Shown piece by piece: positions 3,444 to 21,040 of a DNA stretch of 26,457 bases. This stretch comes from a virus: the IMG/VR virus record IMGVR_UViG_3300042898_000564, positions 1 through 26,457 of that record. One strand, given 5' to 3'. Made by a program: the position numbers and the translations under genes. Under the pieces are notes generated by a model. It was not told where the DNA came from, made no database searches, and worked only from the letters and a program-made list of their open reading frames with translations. Position 1 is the first letter of the stretch, and every line of letters begins with the position of its first letter.

Positions 3444-4226
3444 TTACTGATTGAAAAGATTATCGAATGCCGATGCTACATCGTCTACAGTCGCTACTGA
3501 TCCTGCAGATGATTCTAGTCCAGATTTGTTTGCATTTGTTGCTTTAGTAACAGGGGCTGCTGCTTCAGCTGATGCTTCTGGATCTAACCATGATTTCAAT
3601 AAATTTTCAATTTCATCATAACTGTATTCTTTAAAAATCTCAGTTACTTTAGGTTGTTGACCTAATTTTTCAATAACACCTTTGTCTTGAGTTACAGGTG
3701 TTTGATTTGGTTTAACACGAATCGATGTTTCAGGAAAGTCTTTACCTGTTTGTTCTTTTGATTTAAAATCAACGGTTACGTCTCTACCAGTTACTGGATC
3801 AGTGATATCACCATAATCAGGATCTGCAATAAATCCTAATAGTTCTTGATACACTTGTTTACCAAAACCCCAAAACTTAACTCCTTCTGATTCTTTACCT
3901 CTTACTAGAATTGGTACATAACAACGCATAGTTGGTTCTAATTTCTTACCCATTTTCCAATCATCAGAATTACCTGTTGATTTTAATTTTTCTGCAAATT
4001 CTACAATAGGATCTTGCTTACCAAATGAAATTGGAGAAAGAATGTTTTTACCACTAAAATTGTAATGAAAGTACAATTCCATGAAAGGATTTTCACGATT
4101 GTGTTGAAAGGGAACGATACGAACTACGTTTGTCCCTACTTCTGGTTTCCAAAGATTGTCTTGTTTCTTTGTTACGGTCTGCAAAGCTTGAAGCTTGCTT
4201 TTGATTTGATCTAAATTGATTGCCAT
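3444..4226 (-). CDS. 32: Single-stranded DNA-binding protein, gp32 family
   Basis: Coats single-stranded DNA during replication and recombination. The N-terminus (1-35) is Lys-rich, like the gp32 B domain. The core aligns with gp32 at NVVRIVPF (33-40) and at CYVPILV...GVKFWGFGKQVYQELL (102-130), matching gp32's YWANILVV...VFKYRFGKKIWDKI. The C-terminus is an Ala/Ser linker ending DDVASAFDNLFNQ, equivalent to gp32's acidic protein-interaction tail but less acidic. Length is 260 against 301 in T4. T4 gp32 binds zinc with one His and three Cys; here C102 is the only cysteine, so the zinc site is absent. The leader just upstream holds a tandem heptamer array (4237-4278) that looks like an autogenous operator. 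uvsX follows 16 bases downstream. Confidence 0.88.
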   Translation of the reverse strand: MAINLDQIKSKLQALQTVTKKQDNLWKPEVGTNVVRIVPFQHNRENPFMELYFHYNFSGKNILSPISFGKQDPIVEFAEKLKSTGNSDDWKMGKKLEPTMRCYVPILVRGKESEGVKFWGFGKQVYQELLGFIADPDYGDITDPVTGRDVTVDFKSKEQTGKDFPETSIRVKPNQTPVTQDKGVIEKLGQQPKVTEIFKEYSYDEIENLLKSWLDPEASAEAAAPVTKATNANKSGLESSAGSVATVDDVASAFDNLFNQ

Positions 4227-4236
4227 TTTTCTTTTT

Positions 4237-4278
4237 GTTATTTGTTATTTGTTAATTGTTATTTGTTAATTGTCATTT
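4237..4278 (-). repeat. Heptamer repeats in the SSB gene leader, candidate autogenous operator
   Basis: Five head-to-tail 7-base units on the coding strand (AAATAAC or AATTAAC; plus-strand GTTAWTT at 4237, 4244, 4251, 4258 and 4265), with a sixth degenerate unit at 4272. The array ends 10 bases before the SSB start codon and contains no G in its five perfect units, so the leader RNA should be unstructured. T4 gp32 represses its own translation by cooperative binding to an unstructured, repetitive AU-rich leader, and one gp32 monomer covers about seven nucleotides. The repeat period therefore matches the expected protein footprint. The operator role is inferred. Confidence 0.7.
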
Positions 4279-4336
4279 TGAATAGTGGCCAGTTATTCTA
4301 ACGCCGCTTAACTTTCACAACTTTTATTAATATAAT

Positions 4337-4354
4337 GATCTTTTTTCAAAGATC
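4337..4354 (-). terminator. Perfect 7-bp hairpin with GAAA loop between the 129-aa gene and SSB
   Basis: The coding strand reads GATCTTT, GAAA, AAAGATC: a perfect 7-bp stem closed by a GNRA-type tetraloop, 4 bases past the stop of the 129-residue gene. No U tract follows (the next bases are ATTATATT), so as a terminator it would be weak. It could instead be an mRNA-processing or stabilising element ahead of the SSB leader. Confidence 0.45.
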
Positions 4355-4358
4355 CTAA

Positions 4359-4748
4359 TCAAATGTTGATAATCTGATAAACTTTTGTTTTTAAACAACG
4401 AAGTTCATTGTTAGATGCAATTAAGAATTGATTTGCATACTTGCTCCAATCAATTACATAACTAGTATCTAATATACCATTATTTTCTTGTTTTATCAAA
4501 GCATTTAAAGAATTTACTGTAAACAATGTATTTGTTTCTTTTCTTCTATGAACAATCATTGCACCTGGTAACATTCTTTTTATATGTTCAGATTTGTTTA
4601 TGTTAAAACTACAAACTAACTCATCTGATGCTTCAATTGAAAGTATAAATATTTTCTTATATGCTAATTCATACGTCTTCCCGATCATCTCAATTGTATG
4701 ATCTAATTCTGATTCCGTTGTAAATAAACAGATAAGTTGTACACTCAT
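4359..4748 (-). CDS. Conserved-looking hypothetical protein, 129 aa, next to SSB
   Basis: I do not recognise a characterised family. The protein is small, mixed alpha/beta and soluble, with no signal peptide or membrane segment. It opens with a hydrophobic strand (VQLICLFTT), has a second strand KKIFILSIEA, and then a distinctive central stretch HRRKETNTLFTVNSLNALI (residues 67-85). From memory, similar RKKETNTL(F/Y) proteins occur as hypotheticals in marine T4-like phages, but I could not check this. It is transcribed just ahead of SSB and just after the polymerase. It has its own ATATTTAT octamer (4770-4777) and one of the few good ribosome-binding sites here (AAAGGA four bases before the ATG). 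Its place beside gp32, uvsX and polymerase suggests a replication or late-transcription accessory role, which is inference only. Confidence 0.7.
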   Translation of the reverse strand: MSVQLICLFTTESELDHTIEMIGKTYELAYKKIFILSIEASDELVCSFNINKSEHIKRMLPGAMIVHRRKETNTLFTVNSLNALIKQENNGILDTSYVIDWSKYANQFLIASNNELRCLKTKVYQIINI

Positions 4749-11978: not shown

Positions 11979-14365
11979 TATACTGCCCCGTATGAATTAT
12001 CTACTTTACCTACATAACTTCTATTCATTGTCTGAACTTTATCAATTTCATTAACTACTTTATTACCTATTTTAACTATAACTGGTTGGTTCATTGCAGC
12101 TGCAATTTGTTTAAGTAATGCAACTGTTTCTGAATCGCCCGATGATTGTTGATTGCCTCCAAATAAATTACCTAACATTGCTAATGGATTTGCCATATTT
12201 GAAGCTTCACCTAATCCAGTACCTGCTATTACTGTATCATCAGGTGCCAATTGATATGTACCTTTTTTACCTGATACCATTAACCCACCATCGGGTGCAA
12301 TTTGCGCATCATGTTCTTTTTTAGGTGTATCACCCGCAGCTTCTTTTGATTTATCTTCATTTAATCCTAACAACTTTAACGCCCAATCAGGAAGTAATCC
12401 TTTTATTTTATCTGTTGTCCATCCTAAAGCGTCTTCTGCCATCTTTTTAATACTCGGGAAAAATCCTTTAACTAAGTCAAATGCCAATGTAAATGGCCGT
12501 AATAAATATTTTATTATACCCGAGCCTATATCAGATAATCCACTAAGGAAATCTCCTTTAAATATTTTAACAATGCCTTTAATAATATCAAATGCCATTT
12601 GTATAGGAGCAAATGCAAATTTCATTAATGGGCCAATCGCAGGCAATATAAAATCAACTATCTCTGTAAGTGGATCTAAAATTTCCATCATCGGACCAGC
12701 AATTTTGCCAAATATAGCCATTACCTTATTACCCATTTCAGCTAATTTTTCTTGAGCAGAAGCTTGTTGTTGTTGAAGCACTAATTTTCTAGCTTCTTCA
12801 GCAGTCGTTGCTTGTAACTTAGCTAAATCTTCCTCTTTTAAATCTGATATAGACTTAATCTCACGACCCGATTCTTTCGATAAATCGTTTAATAGTTTTT
12901 GTTGCTCAGCGCCTTTTATTAATGCATCAACTTCCATATTAGCAGCTTTTGCAATAGCCTCTCGTTGGTATGGCGCCATTTTCATTAATTCGTCATACCC
13001 GCCCGCCTGCTTCATAATTTCTTCCATTGACTCATCAATTTTTCCATTTAAAGCTAATTCTCTTGCTTTATCTAGATTCATGTCTTTGCCAGTAAGAACG
13101 CGGGCTTCCATCTCAGCTGCAAGTGATCCTTCAATATCTAATAATCCATCTGTGATAGATTTAACTTCATCTAATGTCTTACCAAATTTTCTAGCAGTAA
13201 TTACTGCTTTTGTTAATTGGCTTATATTTCCTTTAAATGTAGCTTGAACTGCTTTAGAACTACTCGCAACATCTTTCATAACAGCCTTATAATTCATCAT
13301 ACCACCTGTCATTTCTTCAGTAATACCTTGAATTGCAACTACGTTTTGCTCCGCCGTCCTTCCGGATAACATCGCCATTCGTTGAAACATCGCTGCATCT
13401 TCGCCTGCTAATCCATATTGTTTAGTTAACAACACTTGCGTTTCGGCCATTTCAGCTGTTGCTAATTTTGCACTGCCTAATACATTAGCTAATTCCATAT
13501 ATGATTTAGACATTTCGCCAGCTGAAGCTCCAATGACTTTTGTATTTTCGGCTATGTCTAAAAATTCATGATGTAAATGTTCTGCTTCTTCGCGTGATAT
13601 TCCTAAACCACGTGCCATATCAGTAAGCTCTTGATCCATATCAAGTGCTTCCTTAATTAGTATTACCGCTGCGGCCGCGGCGATTGCATATGGATTAATA
13701 CTTTTTAATGATGTAACTAAACCTTTTGCTCCTTGTTTAAATCCTTTAAATCCCCCAATTAAATTGTCTTTAAAAGATGCTCCTTCTTTAGTAGCTCCCT
13801 GTAACGTTGCTGAAAAGGTTTTTGTTAAATCTTTTGCAATACGTTCTTTTAAGTCATCTACGCCTAATGCTTTTGATAATATACCGCCTACTACAGGAAT
13901 TGACTCAATTGAATGTTTAATATTATCAATAAATCCTAATGATTCTTCAATTTCATCGCCGTATTTTTCTTCTATAGCATGAATCTTTTGCTGCTGTTTT
14001 GCTATTTGTTCTTGTAATTTAAGTCGCTTTTTATCAGTTTCTAATTCTTTTAATTTAGCTTTTCCTATCTTAACAGCACTTTTTGTTTCATTTAATATAA
14101 ACCCATGTTCTTTTCGTTTATCCTTTAAATGTTCGCCTGATAAACGTTTAATTGCAATTGCATGTGATTTAACTACATTTTCATTTTTTTCAATGTCTGA
14201 TAAAATACCTAAACGCTGTTCATCTATTTTTAATAATTCAGCTGAATAATCAACGATATCGCCTAATACGTCAGATTCCTTTTCCTGTTTCTTAGCAAGT
14301 TGCTTCTTTAACGAAGCAATTTCCTTGGCTTGGTCTGCAATTAGTTTATCGTGGTCTTTAGCCAT
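11978..14365 (-). CDS. Tail tape measure protein
   Basis: Sets tail length during tube assembly and is held in the tube lumen. Features: an N-terminal coiled coil (about 1-140, nearly all Glu, Lys, Gln and Leu), a hydrophobic Ala-rich helix (INPYAIAAAAAVILIKEAL, about 223-241), a long helical middle (about 245-545), and a second hydrophobic block (about 560-640) with MEILDPLTEIVDFILPAIGP and FAPIQMAFDIIKGIVKIF. The C-terminus is Gly-rich and polar, then LLKQIAAAMNQPVIVKIGN. At 795 residues and roughly 1.5 angstrom per residue, a rule of thumb for other phages, the tail would be near 120 nm. It is flanked by the tagged 131-residue gene (TAATG overlap) and the large baseplate gene, with the gp26/frameshift gene just before: the standard chaperone-tape measure-baseplate order. 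T4 gp29 is the functional counterpart. Confidence 0.85.
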   Translation of the reverse strand: MAKDHDKLIADQAKEIASLKKQLAKKQEKESDVLGDIVDYSAELLKIDEQRLGILSDIEKNENVVKSHAIAIKRLSGEHLKDKRKEHGFILNETKSAVKIGKAKLKELETDKKRLKLQEQIAKQQQKIHAIEEKYGDEIEESLGFIDNIKHSIESIPVVGGILSKALGVDDLKERIAKDLTKTFSATLQGATKEGASFKDNLIGGFKGFKQGAKGLVTSLKSINPYAIAAAAAVILIKEALDMDQELTDMARGLGISREEAEHLHHEFLDIAENTKVIGASAGEMSKSYMELANVLGSAKLATAEMAETQVLLTKQYGLAGEDAAMFQRMAMLSGRTAEQNVVAIQGITEEMTGGMMNYKAVMKDVASSSKAVQATFKGNISQLTKAVITARKFGKTLDEVKSITDGLLDIEGSLAAEMEARVLTGKDMNLDKARELALNGKIDESMEEIMKQAGGYDELMKMAPYQREAIAKAANMEVDALIKGAEQQKLLNDLSKESGREIKSISDLKEEDLAKLQATTAEEARKLVLQQQQASAQEKLAEMGNKVMAIFGKIAGPMMEILDPLTEIVDFILPAIGPLMKFAFAPIQMAFDIIKGIVKIFKGDFLSGLSDIGSGIIKYLLRPFTLAFDLVKGFFPSIKKMAEDALGWTTDKIKGLLPDWALKLLGLNEDKSKEAAGDTPKKEHDAQIAPDGGLMVSGKKGTYQLAPDDTVIAGTGLGEASNMANPLAMLGNLFGGNQQSSGDSETVALLKQIAAAMNQPVIVKIGNKVVNEIDKVQTMNRSYVGKVDNSYGAV

Positions 14366-14760
14366 TATTTATCAAAGTTCTTTTTAAATAATTTTGTAGA
14401 CTTATTTTTAATGTTTTTAGTCCACTTAGAATATTGTTGCATGAATTCGTCAGTAGACATATCAGAACTAAATTTATAGCCATATTTCGTAGCTTCATCA
14501 TACATCTTTTCAGCTTCTTTAACTTGAGTCGCAGCGTCTTTTTCTAATTGAGCTAAATGTTCTGCTGTTAATTTAATTTGCGCTTGCAAATTTTTCCACT
14601 CTGTAGATTTTTTAATTTTTTCAGCATCTCGTTTAACTTTAGGAGTTAAAATAAGAGATATAATTTTATCTACTAGTCCTTCGACAATTAACGGACTATT
14701 TGAATAGTCGTACTTATTAACTTCTTCTGTTATAATAGATCTAATTTTAGATAGTTTCAT
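14365..14760 (-). CDS. Small tagged helical protein before the tape measure, 131 aa
   Basis: Unknown function. The N-terminus MKLSKIRSIITEEV fits the shared tag seen on five other proteins here (Met-Lys-x-x-x-Leu/Ile-Arg-x-Ile/Leu-Ile-x-x-Glu-Val). Unlike the others the tag lacks the closing Ala-Leu-x-Glu, but an (I/L)xE site, IVEG, occurs at 25-28. The rest is charged and helical, with a likely coiled coil about 40-85 (rich in Lys, Glu and Ala: KLTAEHLAQLEKDAATQVKE) and a strongly basic C-terminus (KNIKNKSTKLFKKNFDK). It overlaps the tape measure start (TAATG), so the two are translationally coupled. It has its own ATATTTAT octamer (14779-14786) 18 bases before the ATG. It may be a tail-assembly factor or a small virion protein; nothing decides between them. 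Confidence 0.75.
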   Translation of the reverse strand: MKLSKIRSIITEEVNKYDYSNSPLIVEGLVDKIISLILTPKVKRDAEKIKKSTEWKNLQAQIKLTAEHLAQLEKDAATQVKEAEKMYDEATKYGYKFSSDMSTDEFMQQYSKWTKNIKNKSTKLFKKNFDK

Positions 14761-15956: not shown

Positions 15957-16427
15957 CTATAAGTATATCTCTGTTTGTATATATACATCAGGCATAATCC
16001 ATGCTCGTCTAACTTCACGGGGATGATTTCCTCCTGGGTCTCTGAACGGATCTTTAAATTTACTTTTTTCAATTTTTAGTGTATTTAAAAAGTCTTTAAT
16101 TGTTTCTGATCCGGTATACTTTAATTTGTTTATCTTATACAGCGTTTCAAGAGAATCAATATTATTTTGTTTTAGCATGTTAGCAATTGATATTGCCATT
16201 TTAGGTGCACTGGGCCTATACAATTCTTTGCCGTCTCTTCTGCGTTGATCGAAAATTTTATAATATGTAGCTGGTAAAAAAGTTAATCTTAAATACTTTA
16301 TAACATCAGCTGACTTAGTAAATTCGTCTAAAAATGAATTATCATTTTCTTTTACTAATTTAGTAGATTCATTAATAGCGTTACGAACTTCAGTTTTAAT
16401 CAGGTTTCTTAATTCTTGTATTTTCAT
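15957..16427 (-). CDS. Tagged protein of unknown function, 156 aa
   Basis: The N-terminus MKIQELRNLIKTEV is the shared tag, ending in an INE/S site at residues 18-21 and followed by VKE at 25-27. The remainder has no family I recognise. It is mostly helical and basic (KYLRLTFLPATYYKIFDQRRRDGKELY; SIANMLKQNNIDSLETLYKI), with a Pro-rich basic stretch DPFRDPGGNHPREVRRAW near residues 124-142. There is no signal peptide or membrane segment. It stands alone between an octamer 50 bases upstream (16478-16485) and a strong terminator. A packaged virion protein is plausible if the tag is a targeting or maturation signal; that is inference. Confidence 0.75.
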   Translation of the reverse strand: MKIQELRNLIKTEVRNAINESTKLVKENDNSFLDEFTKSADVIKYLRLTFLPATYYKIFDQRRRDGKELYRPSAPKMAISIANMLKQNNIDSLETLYKINKLKYTGSETIKDFLNTLKIEKSKFKDPFRDPGGNHPREVRRAWIMPDVYIQTEIYL

Positions 16428-16493: not shown

Positions 16494-17030
16494 TTATAAA
16501 TCACCTGTTTTGCCCTTGAAAAGAATATCTGATTTCTTAAGGCCTTGTGTATTTAACCATTTACCTAATTCATAATTCATATTAGGTATAGGTTCATTTT
16601 CGTTACCGGGTGTTTTTAATTTAGGTAATAATACAGTATCTATAAACTGTTTTTCTATCGTATCATCTAATATAATAGATACTTCAGGATCTAATCTAAT
16701 TGCATCCCAAAATGGAGTCGTTAATTGTTTAAATTCTGAACCTTTAGGATTTTTTAGCTCATCGTTCGAAACTGTTTTACCTAATGCAAATAAAGCTGAT
16801 GCAACTGTTTTAATGTCTTTAATATTATCATATACATCTAATCCTTTTTGTATAATACTAATACCCGGCACTAATGACATTCCAAATTTACCTAATTTTT
16901 TTAATGAACTAACAGCGTCCTGTTCATTAGCCTTACCTACAATTACTTCAAATGCTTGTTTTACTTCGCCCCATGTAGGTTGCGTATCTTCTAATAAAAG
17001 TTGTTCTGCTATAGGTTTAAGCTTGATCAT
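16494..17030 (-). CDS. Unknown helical protein, 178 aa, with a different N-terminal peptide
   Basis: Not a family I recognise. The N-terminus MIKLKPIAEQLLLEDTQ is a short amphipathic, Leu-rich segment ending in LLED. It is not the common tag of its neighbours but has similar style and could be a second type of targeting peptide. A moderately hydrophobic Gly-containing stretch (GKFGMSLVPGISIIQKGL, about 47-64) and KTVASALFALGK (about 74-85) could associate with membranes or be a buried helix hairpin. The C-terminal half contains PFWDAIRLDPEVSIILDDTI and KWLNTQGLKKSDILFKG. It overlaps the upstream 113-residue gene by 14 bases, so it belongs to the ferritin transcript. Confidence 0.7.
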   Translation of the reverse strand: MIKLKPIAEQLLLEDTQPTWGEVKQAFEVIVGKANEQDAVSSLKKLGKFGMSLVPGISIIQKGLDVYDNIKDIKTVASALFALGKTVSNDELKNPKGSEFKQLTTPFWDAIRLDPEVSIILDDTIEKQFIDTVLLPKLKTPGNENEPIPNMNYELGKWLNTQGLKKSDILFKGKTGDL

Positions 17031-17358
17031 TTGAAGCTTGTTTTAATACACCTTTTAATTTACTAGCTATTTGAGTAAAGTCTTGTTCTGTAATACCAAA
17101 TGCAATTGCGACTGCGCCTAATAAAGCAACTCGTTGAGCATTATTTTTTAATGACTTAACAGCTGTCGGATCTTCAATTAAATCTATTACTTTAGCTCTG
17201 ATAGAACTGTCAATAGCTTTAATAGCCATATTTAAATTTTTAATGACTTGAGGATCTTGTATTTTATTACCGTCAGGTCCTACAGGAATAATATCTACTT
17301 CATTTAATGCAGATACAATTTCTTCTTTGATTAATTTTCTTAATTCAGATGTTTTCAT
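17017..17358 (-). CDS. Tagged protein of unknown function, 113 aa, downstream of ferritin
   Basis: Begins with the best tag of the set, MKTSELRKLIKEEI, running into ALNE at 17-20, an (L/I)xE site. After the tag: a Pro/Gly linker (VDIIPVGPDGNKIQDP), then two or three helices, including an Ala/Val-rich hydrophobic one (RVALLGAVAIAFGITEQDF, about 76-94). No known domain. The start codon abuts the ferritin stop (TAA immediately followed by ATG), so production should be coupled to ferritin, and the 178-residue gene overlaps its 3' end. If the tag marks virion cargo, this could be a partner or carrier for ferritin; nothing in the sequence proves that. Confidence 0.75.
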   Translation of the reverse strand: MKTSELRKLIKEEIVSALNEVDIIPVGPDGNKIQDPQVIKNLNMAIKAIDSSIRAKVIDLIEDPTAVKSLKNNAQRVALLGAVAIAFGITEQDFTQIASKLKGVLKQASNDQA

Positions 17359-17954: not shown

Positions 17955-18188
17955 TTAATAACCTTCCGAGGCACCGGCATCTTTAATATCAATAATTAAA
18001 GAAGCTAATTCATTGTAATCAAATTCTCCTCCAGTTGTACCAAGATAATTTTCTAAAGCTATAACAGCTTCTTTAAATTCACCAGAAGGTTGAATTATTT
18101 TTAAAAGCTCACCTTCACTAAGTTGATTTTCGTTAACTGCTTTACGAACTTCAGTTCTGATCAAGTTTCGTAATTCTTGTAGTTTCAT
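17955..18188 (-). CDS. Small tagged acidic protein, 77 aa
   Basis: The first 20 residues are the shared tag (MKLQELRNLIRTEV, ending in AVNE), with a second (L/I)xE-Gly site, LSEG, at 23-26. The body of ~50 residues is acidic and helical (KEAVIALENYLGTTGGEFDYNELASLIIDIKD), ending DAGASEGY. No known domain. It lies between the homing endonuclease upstream and a terminator downstream, with its own octamer 18 bases before the ATG. The short body could mean it is a naturally small internal protein, or a remnant shortened when the endonuclease gene arrived next door; the clean promoter-like and terminator elements favour the first. Confidence 0.72.
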   Translation of the reverse strand: MKLQELRNLIRTEVRKAVNENQLSEGELLKIIQPSGEFKEAVIALENYLGTTGGEFDYNELASLIIDIKDAGASEGY

Positions 18189-20407: not shown

Positions 20408-21040
20408 TTATATTTTAGTTTGCATTGCCATAGATATGTCCTTAAGGTCATTTTTTAATGTATTTACATTGTATTGACCACCTGCGATAATTTCATAAAT
20501 TATCTTTATTTTTTTACTGTTCTTTTCAACAGACTGCGCATACTTTTTCATGTAATTATTTTTTTCTACTTGCTCAGCAAAGGCTTGCGTAAACTCATCA
20601 AATGATTTTGATTTGCATTGACTTGATAGGTCTTGAGCCGTTTGAGCGTTAAATACTTCAAAGAAATACTCTAATGCATTCTTCATGTCATATGTAGAAT
20701 CATTTAATTCTATTTTTGCTAAACCTGCGGCTCCATATACTAACATTCTAGCGCCTATATAAGGCAATAATTGAGTAGCTAATGCATACTTGGTTCTTCT
20801 AGGATAAATTTTTGAATATCCAATTGGAGATCCTATTACTGCATCTACATCAAACCATACTTTATAATGATCTTGTGGTCTAGAATTTTCCCATGCTCCG
20901 TCAGATAATTGACCTAAAATTTCAGCGTTAAATAAATTAAGCTGAGATTGGTTTTTAACAGTTAATGTACCGTACTTAACTTCCGTTAAAGCTTGTTTAA
21001 CCGATTCTTTTATTAAATTTTTTAATTCAAAAAGTTTCAT
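20408..21040 (-). CDS. Tagged protein of unknown function, 210 aa, after the sheath gene
   Basis: Starts with the shared tag MKLFELKNLIKESV ending in ALTE (17-20). The body contains a compact-looking domain: LNLFNAEILGQLSDGAWENS (34-53), then HYKVWFDVDAVIG, IGYSKIYPRRTKYALATQLLPYIG and a hydrophobic segment ARMLVYGAAGLAKIEL (about 97-112). The C-terminal ~70 residues are Lys/Gln-rich helices. The GQLSDGAWEN phrase looks like a conserved motif, but I cannot name the family. It begins a two-gene transcript with the polyprotein-like gene; a terminator lies upstream, after the sheath, and an octamer lies 17 bases before the ATG. Position between sheath and tube is unusual for non-tail genes. Confidence 0.75.
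   Translation of the reverse strand: MKLFELKNLIKESVKQALTEVKYGTLTVKNQSQLNLFNAEILGQLSDGAWENSRPQDHYKVWFDVDAVIGSPIGYSKIYPRRTKYALATQLLPYIGARMLVYGAAGLAKIELNDSTYDMKNALEYFFEVFNAQTAQDLSSQCKSKSFDEFTQAFAEQVEKNNYMKKYAQSVEKNSKKIKIIYEIIAGGQYNVNTLKNDLKDISMAMQTKI

Follow-up and report, generated by a model that had tools for sequence, protein, structure and literature searches.

Seven-nucleotide phasing of repeats in the leader of a phage gene for a gp32-family single-stranded DNA-binding protein

The window, by which we mean the whole stretch of DNA analyzed (G000, a 26,457-base IMG/VR virus fragment of an uncultured phage), contains a gene for a single-stranded DNA-binding protein (SSB) whose leader carries a tandem array of heptamers. 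We found that this SSB is a member of the gp32 family, that the 7-nt phasing of the array is real, specific to SSB leaders and conserved among relatives, and that a covarying hairpin adjoins the array in two clades. On balance of the analysis, the leader is probably an autogenous translational operator that resembles the one of T4 gene 32 in its construction, except that it is phased by seven. The features on which the argument is based are the following.

3444-4226, minus strand: SSB gene, gp32-type, 260 aa (Pfam, PHROG, PDB profiles, AlphaFold model)
4231-4237, minus strand: sixth, degenerate unit, CAAAAAG (sequence)
4238-4272, minus strand: five perfect heptamers CAAWTAA, at 4272-4266, 4265-4259, 4258-4252, 4251-4245 and 4244-4238 (TRF, lag-7 match, simulations)
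4274-4303, minus strand: candidate hairpin directly 5' of the array, core GAATA-(9 nt)-TATTC (part of the MFE fold)
4286-4291, minus strand: palindrome TGGCCA in the hairpin loop (TCTAGA, TCCGGA or CCTAGG instead in relatives)
4328-4358, minus strand: promoter-like stretch TTAGG...TATATTA (position homologous to TTTGG-N~19-TATATTT of relatives)
4337-4354, minus strand: inverted repeat GATCTTT..AAAGATC between the promoter-like boxes (sequence; arms covary in relatives)

The SSB gene and its heptamer array

The gene was originally predicted to encode an SSB comparable to gp32, and it does so by profile as well as by fold. The protein passed the curated cut-off of PF08804 (E 2e-11, 44.7 bits; cut-off 26.8), the gene matched PHROG 1192/224, and a PDB profile search returned gp32 only (T4, RB69) at E < 1e-6. 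The AlphaFold model (mean pLDDT 76.7) matched the cores of RB69/T4 gp32 at E 3e-9 to 8e-9, and all six PDB matches of the model at E < 0.001 were gp32. The zinc motif C-x3-H-x5-C-x2-C is a T4/RB69 feature that is not required for passing PF08804; it is absent from this SSB, whose 260 aa translation contains one Cys.

On the minus strand the SSB gene is followed by UvsX-like and exonuclease genes, and its start is separated by 132 bases from the upstream ORF (end 4359). This ORF (4359-4748, 129 aa), which lies immediately upstream of the leader, had no PHROG or Pfam match. Elsewhere in the window an N-terminal motif like MKxxELRNLIKxEVRKAxNE is common to otherwise different ORFs (14365-14760, 15957-16427, 17017-17358, 17955-18188 and 20408-21040). 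A search of host genome contigs for this SSB yielded 242 candidate stretches and no relatives among them.

The array is located between the promoter-like site and the SSB start codon, and this part of the minus strand reads ATGA, CAATTAA, CAAATAA, CAATTAA, CAAATAA, CAAATAA, CAAAAAG, AAAA and the ATG. The repeats had been noted in the register AAWTAAC as five perfect units, free of G, whose end is 10 bases away from the start codon, plus one degenerate unit; this was confirmed, with the perfect units of that register at 4271-4237 and the degenerate sixth unit at 4237-4231. TRF reported the array at 4234-4278 with period 7 and 6.4 copies. Its lag-7 match was 0.89 (42-nt window), compared to 0.63 for the runner-up site in the 26-kb window, and none of 300 Markov-simulated windows reached its score (simulated maximum 0.69). 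Measured against dinucleotide shuffles, the SSB leader of the window had a z of 6.0 at lag 7.

An A-rich, unstructured leader could also serve to enhance translation, by offering A-3, A-6, A-12/-13 and perhaps a site for bS1 to Bacteroidota-type initiation without Shine-Dalgarno, as would suit a gene needed in quantity. Initiation in Flavobacterium is reported to be promoted by A-rich motifs at -12/-13, with bS1 binding proposed (PMC6847099), and single AACAATTAA-like motifs are indeed seen in further leaders of these phages. Nevertheless, this leaves the fixed 7-nt spacing unexplained: the 28 other leaders in the window have at most two such motifs each and never a chain of them at spacing 7, most leaders of other genes, even if AT-rich, are without the spacing, and the period-7 phasing is present also in clades with a GGAG Shine-Dalgarno (L070, L174). 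We thus regard translation enhancement as an unlikely explanation of the array.

Conservation of the seven-base spacing among relatives

To the window we added the leaders recovered in six scans of viral contigs with the SSBs of this clade and those of three phage records. The 333 sequences with an SSB match, many of which are the same contig retrieved by several scans, gave 315 usable leaders, of which 145 were distinct; these formed 50 clusters at 80% protein identity, and dinucleotide shuffles were used as the null. The comparison of relatives' leaders that had been called for clearly indicates that period 7 is kept, and that it is specific to the SSB leaders. The cluster mean z was 2.11 at lag 7 (sem 0.22), 1.40 at lag 14 and 0.80 at lag 21, and the next highest lags were 3 (0.66) and 11 (0.62), so that only 7 and its multiples stood out. 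Leaders of other ORFs at the same loci had a mean z of -0.09 at lag 7, with 2.6% above 2 (n=540). A z above 2 was likewise found for 5.8% of the AT-rich controls (A+T at least 0.78, n=138), compared to 58.6% of the 145 SSB leaders. By cluster, z at lag 7 exceeded 2 in 26 of 50 and lag 7 was the best lag in 23; Mel-JY01 and immuto, which are cultured relatives, are among the 24 clusters that did not exceed 2. At lag 7 the SSB leader ranked third (G001), second (G003) and below eighth (G005) within three long phage contigs, indicating that sites of similar score, one of them a TATA-like tract, exist elsewhere in these contigs. Weak period-7 units were also seen in the leader of a conserved, probably membrane, protein of 114 aa (L286:610, L290:411, L047:1595).

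In many relatives the spacing is conserved while the units diverge. The unit is CAAWTAA in the window, CAATTAC/TAATTAT in the L005 clade, RATAAAC in the L070 clade and GCACATT in L213, and the spacing stays 7 throughout. The near-identical units of the window are what neutral tandem-repeat slippage within an AT-rich spacer would yield. Among the relatives, however, neighboring units differ from each other, whereas a given unit retains its sequence from phage to phage, and the 17 distinct five-unit blocks could be aligned without gaps; this disfavors recent slippage. Considering also that the 7-nt period is found again with other unit sequences and that few other sites in the genomes show it, we hold slippage to be highly improbable. 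Per-base conservation did not show a significant 7-nt phase (p 0.18; p 0.31 without the subclade of the window). Phases 3 and 5 were invariant (0 of 10 columns varied, against 13 of 25 elsewhere), an observation that was made post hoc and is only suggestive.

Of the 36 clade-A leaders, 29 have their first and last units exactly 28 nt apart, and in 35 the last unit is 9-15 nt away from the ATG, which ties the array to the start codon. The latter result, together with the fact that the units are read on the sense strand, also argues against a DNA-level element in the promoter-leader region, be it the iterons of a replication origin or the sites of a transcription factor. Direct repeats beside replication genes are typical of iterons; moreover, the nearby palindromes and the inverted repeat between the promoter boxes could be protein sites. 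The GC skew over 1-12 kb, on the other hand, showed no origin-like turn, whether at 4.2 kb or elsewhere, and altogether a DNA-level role seems quite improbable to us.

Hairpin, palindrome and promoter-like region 5' of the array

An autogenous operator of the T4 kind would include a nucleating structure, and such a structure was expected just upstream of the repeats. At this place, directly 5' of the array, two clades carry a conserved, covarying hairpin. The 18 leaders of the L070 clade (clade B) share an 8-bp hairpin at this position with 98.6% of cells paired and one pair switched from U-A to A-U in 7 of 18, and the hairpin of clade A (AUGUA/UACAU plus an inner helix) has 85.5% of cells paired and 20 double-sided cells compared to 7.8 in shuffles (17 sequences), covariation counts that are inflated by the kinship of the sequences and refer to a structure drawn from those same sequences. 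Furthermore, own hairpin arms paired better than swapped ones (-7.80 versus -6.31, sd 0.34; 0 of 2000 permutations, 25 distinct leaders), and in L098 the hairpin loop is deleted and the stem retained. Single-sequence folding of 40 clade-A leaders gave no extra stability over shuffles (mean z -0.01), RNAalifold found no consensus structure in the 36-row clade-A alignment, and an Rfam search of 4100-4500 returned no family match.

The GAATA/TATTC core of the candidate hairpin in the window is also found in L002 and L003; its local stability was not above that of shuffles. The leader had been described as unstructured, which is true insofar as its structure does not exceed that of shuffles (MFE -7.2 kcal/mol, z -0.37); the best single fold does pair some bases of the first units with bases further upstream. 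Similarly, the GC-rich island that was noted near 4287-4303 is only partly within those limits: GGCC lies at 4287-4290, whereas GCGGCG extends over 4302-4307.

The GGCC of this island is part of the loop palindrome. One of TCTAGA, TCCGGA, TGGCCA or CCTAGG is present in 38 of 40 clade-A leaders, palindromy thus being kept though the sequence changes, and it may serve for kissing between loops or as the site of a dimeric protein. A pairing between the loop CUAG and an upstream UUAG was rejected by eye, as L004 and L008 have CCGG in the loop but still UUAG upstream. A GGYC/GGCC pairing, again judged by eye, occurs in L002 and L003 only; from the sequences a pseudoknot beside the array is a possible candidate. 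For the window, where such a pairing would have just three G-C pairs, we do not claim a stable upstream pseudoknot.

A pair of boxes TTTG...TAnnTTW, resembling a Bacteroidota promoter, precedes the array in 19 of 50 clusters compared to 3.8 expected. The window itself fails the promoter regular expressions, and TTAGG...TATATTA stands at the homologous place. Since many clades have a promoter-like site ahead of the array, the heptamer repeats are probably transcribed; the pair is presumably of the Bacteroidota type and the host presumably of that phylum. Own arms of the inverted repeat in the promoter spacer paired at -5.24 kcal/mol in clade-A sites, compared to -2.99 kcal/mol for permuted arms (0 of 2000, 31 leaders). 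This inverted repeat was also seen at a few other promoters of G001 and G003 and is absent from most.

The proposed operator and known gp32 leaders

The gp32 proteins of T4 and RB69 are described to repress their own mRNA via a pseudoknot that is followed by UUAAA/UAAA repeats (PMC535899), the general layout being a 5' structured element and then an AU-rich repeat tract that runs into the initiation region (PMC535899, PMC3014915). Positions 4231-4303 would likewise form the leader at the 5' end of the SSB mRNA and act as its translational operator. Once the SSB is in excess of the available single-stranded DNA, it would bind first at the structured 5' element (the hairpin, possibly a pseudoknot) and then spread cooperatively in the 3' direction over the single-stranded, AU-rich tract until it reaches the start codon and blocks ribosomes. 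The NAAWUAN units in their 7-nt register would offer each monomer in turn the same preferred bases. We infer in this scheme that the SSB binds the leader RNA and thereby represses translation, and that one monomer sits on each unit.

The occluded site of T4 gp32 is reported to be 7 nt and to shrink to about 5 under crowding (PMC10484735). One monomer per repeat, as proposed in the original prediction because the period equals this footprint, is plausible. A stronger reading, in which the leader is a sequence-encoded ruler, with a period equal to the distance at which this particular SSB seats on RNA and with one monomer placed in register on every unit, is possible but in our view doubtful. 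As a rule, the equality of period and gp32 footprint fails: T4 gp32 occludes 7 nt and yet has 5-base repeats, the period in KVP40 is 5, and that in another clade is 11. More explicitly, the UUAAA repeats of the T4 leader are spaced 4-5 nt (z 2.6 at lag 5) and the KVP40 leader (L342) has a period-5 array of AATAC-like units (z 3.7 at lag 5). Lag 7 was the best lag in none of the 20 cultured-phage leaders scored, and the 34 clusters of T4/KVP40-type leaders gave no lag-7 signal (mean z 0.01), in a set of 80 leaders that counts 9 of the L225 group with wrong starts and some others with misplaced starts (e.g. L497 and L499, which are coding). In the L225/L378-type leaders (L225-L229, L378-L457), which belong to a distant, uncultured gp32 clade (PF08804 E 1e-48 for the L225 protein), CCGTTTATAYT-like units recur at 11-nt spacing; their raw lag-11 match was 0.41 compared to at most 0.315 at other lags (61 distinct leaders, no shuffles). 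Considering the periods of 5 and 11 and the lack of a lag-7 signal in the 34 clusters, the spacing is lineage-specific and its match to the T4 footprint may be a coincidence.

If the leader were a ruler, the periods of 5 (T4/KVP40) and 11 (L225 clade) would be rulers that changed along with their SSB, and the footprint size of an SSB could be read from its leader. According to PMC535899, it is unclear by what means gp32 distinguishes its own mRNA from other single-stranded nucleic acids. The family provides a natural set with fixed spacing and drifting units, which separates register from sequence and makes self-recognition by gp32 directly testable. A literature search limited to titles and the start of abstracts, in which subscription journals were mostly uncovered, gave no description of seven-phased SSB leaders. 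The data suggest that SSB feedback is repeatedly wired through phased leaders, each lineage having a period of its own.

Basically, the leader in the window resembles the operator of T4 gene 32 (and those of T2 and RB69) in that a gp32-family SSB is preceded by a 5' structured element and AU-rich repeats that abut the initiation site. It differs in that the units are NAAWUAN at 7 nt, whereas those of T4 are UUAAA at 4-5 nt, in that the clade of the window lacks a Shine-Dalgarno and in that its SSB lacks the zinc motif. The pseudoknot is proven in T4, whereas the relatives of the window show a covarying hairpin and at most a possible pseudoknot. The KVP40 gene 32 leader shares with the window the short tandem units upstream of gp32 but has period 5, and the L225/L378-type leaders share the phased repeats upstream of gp32 but have 11-nt spacing.
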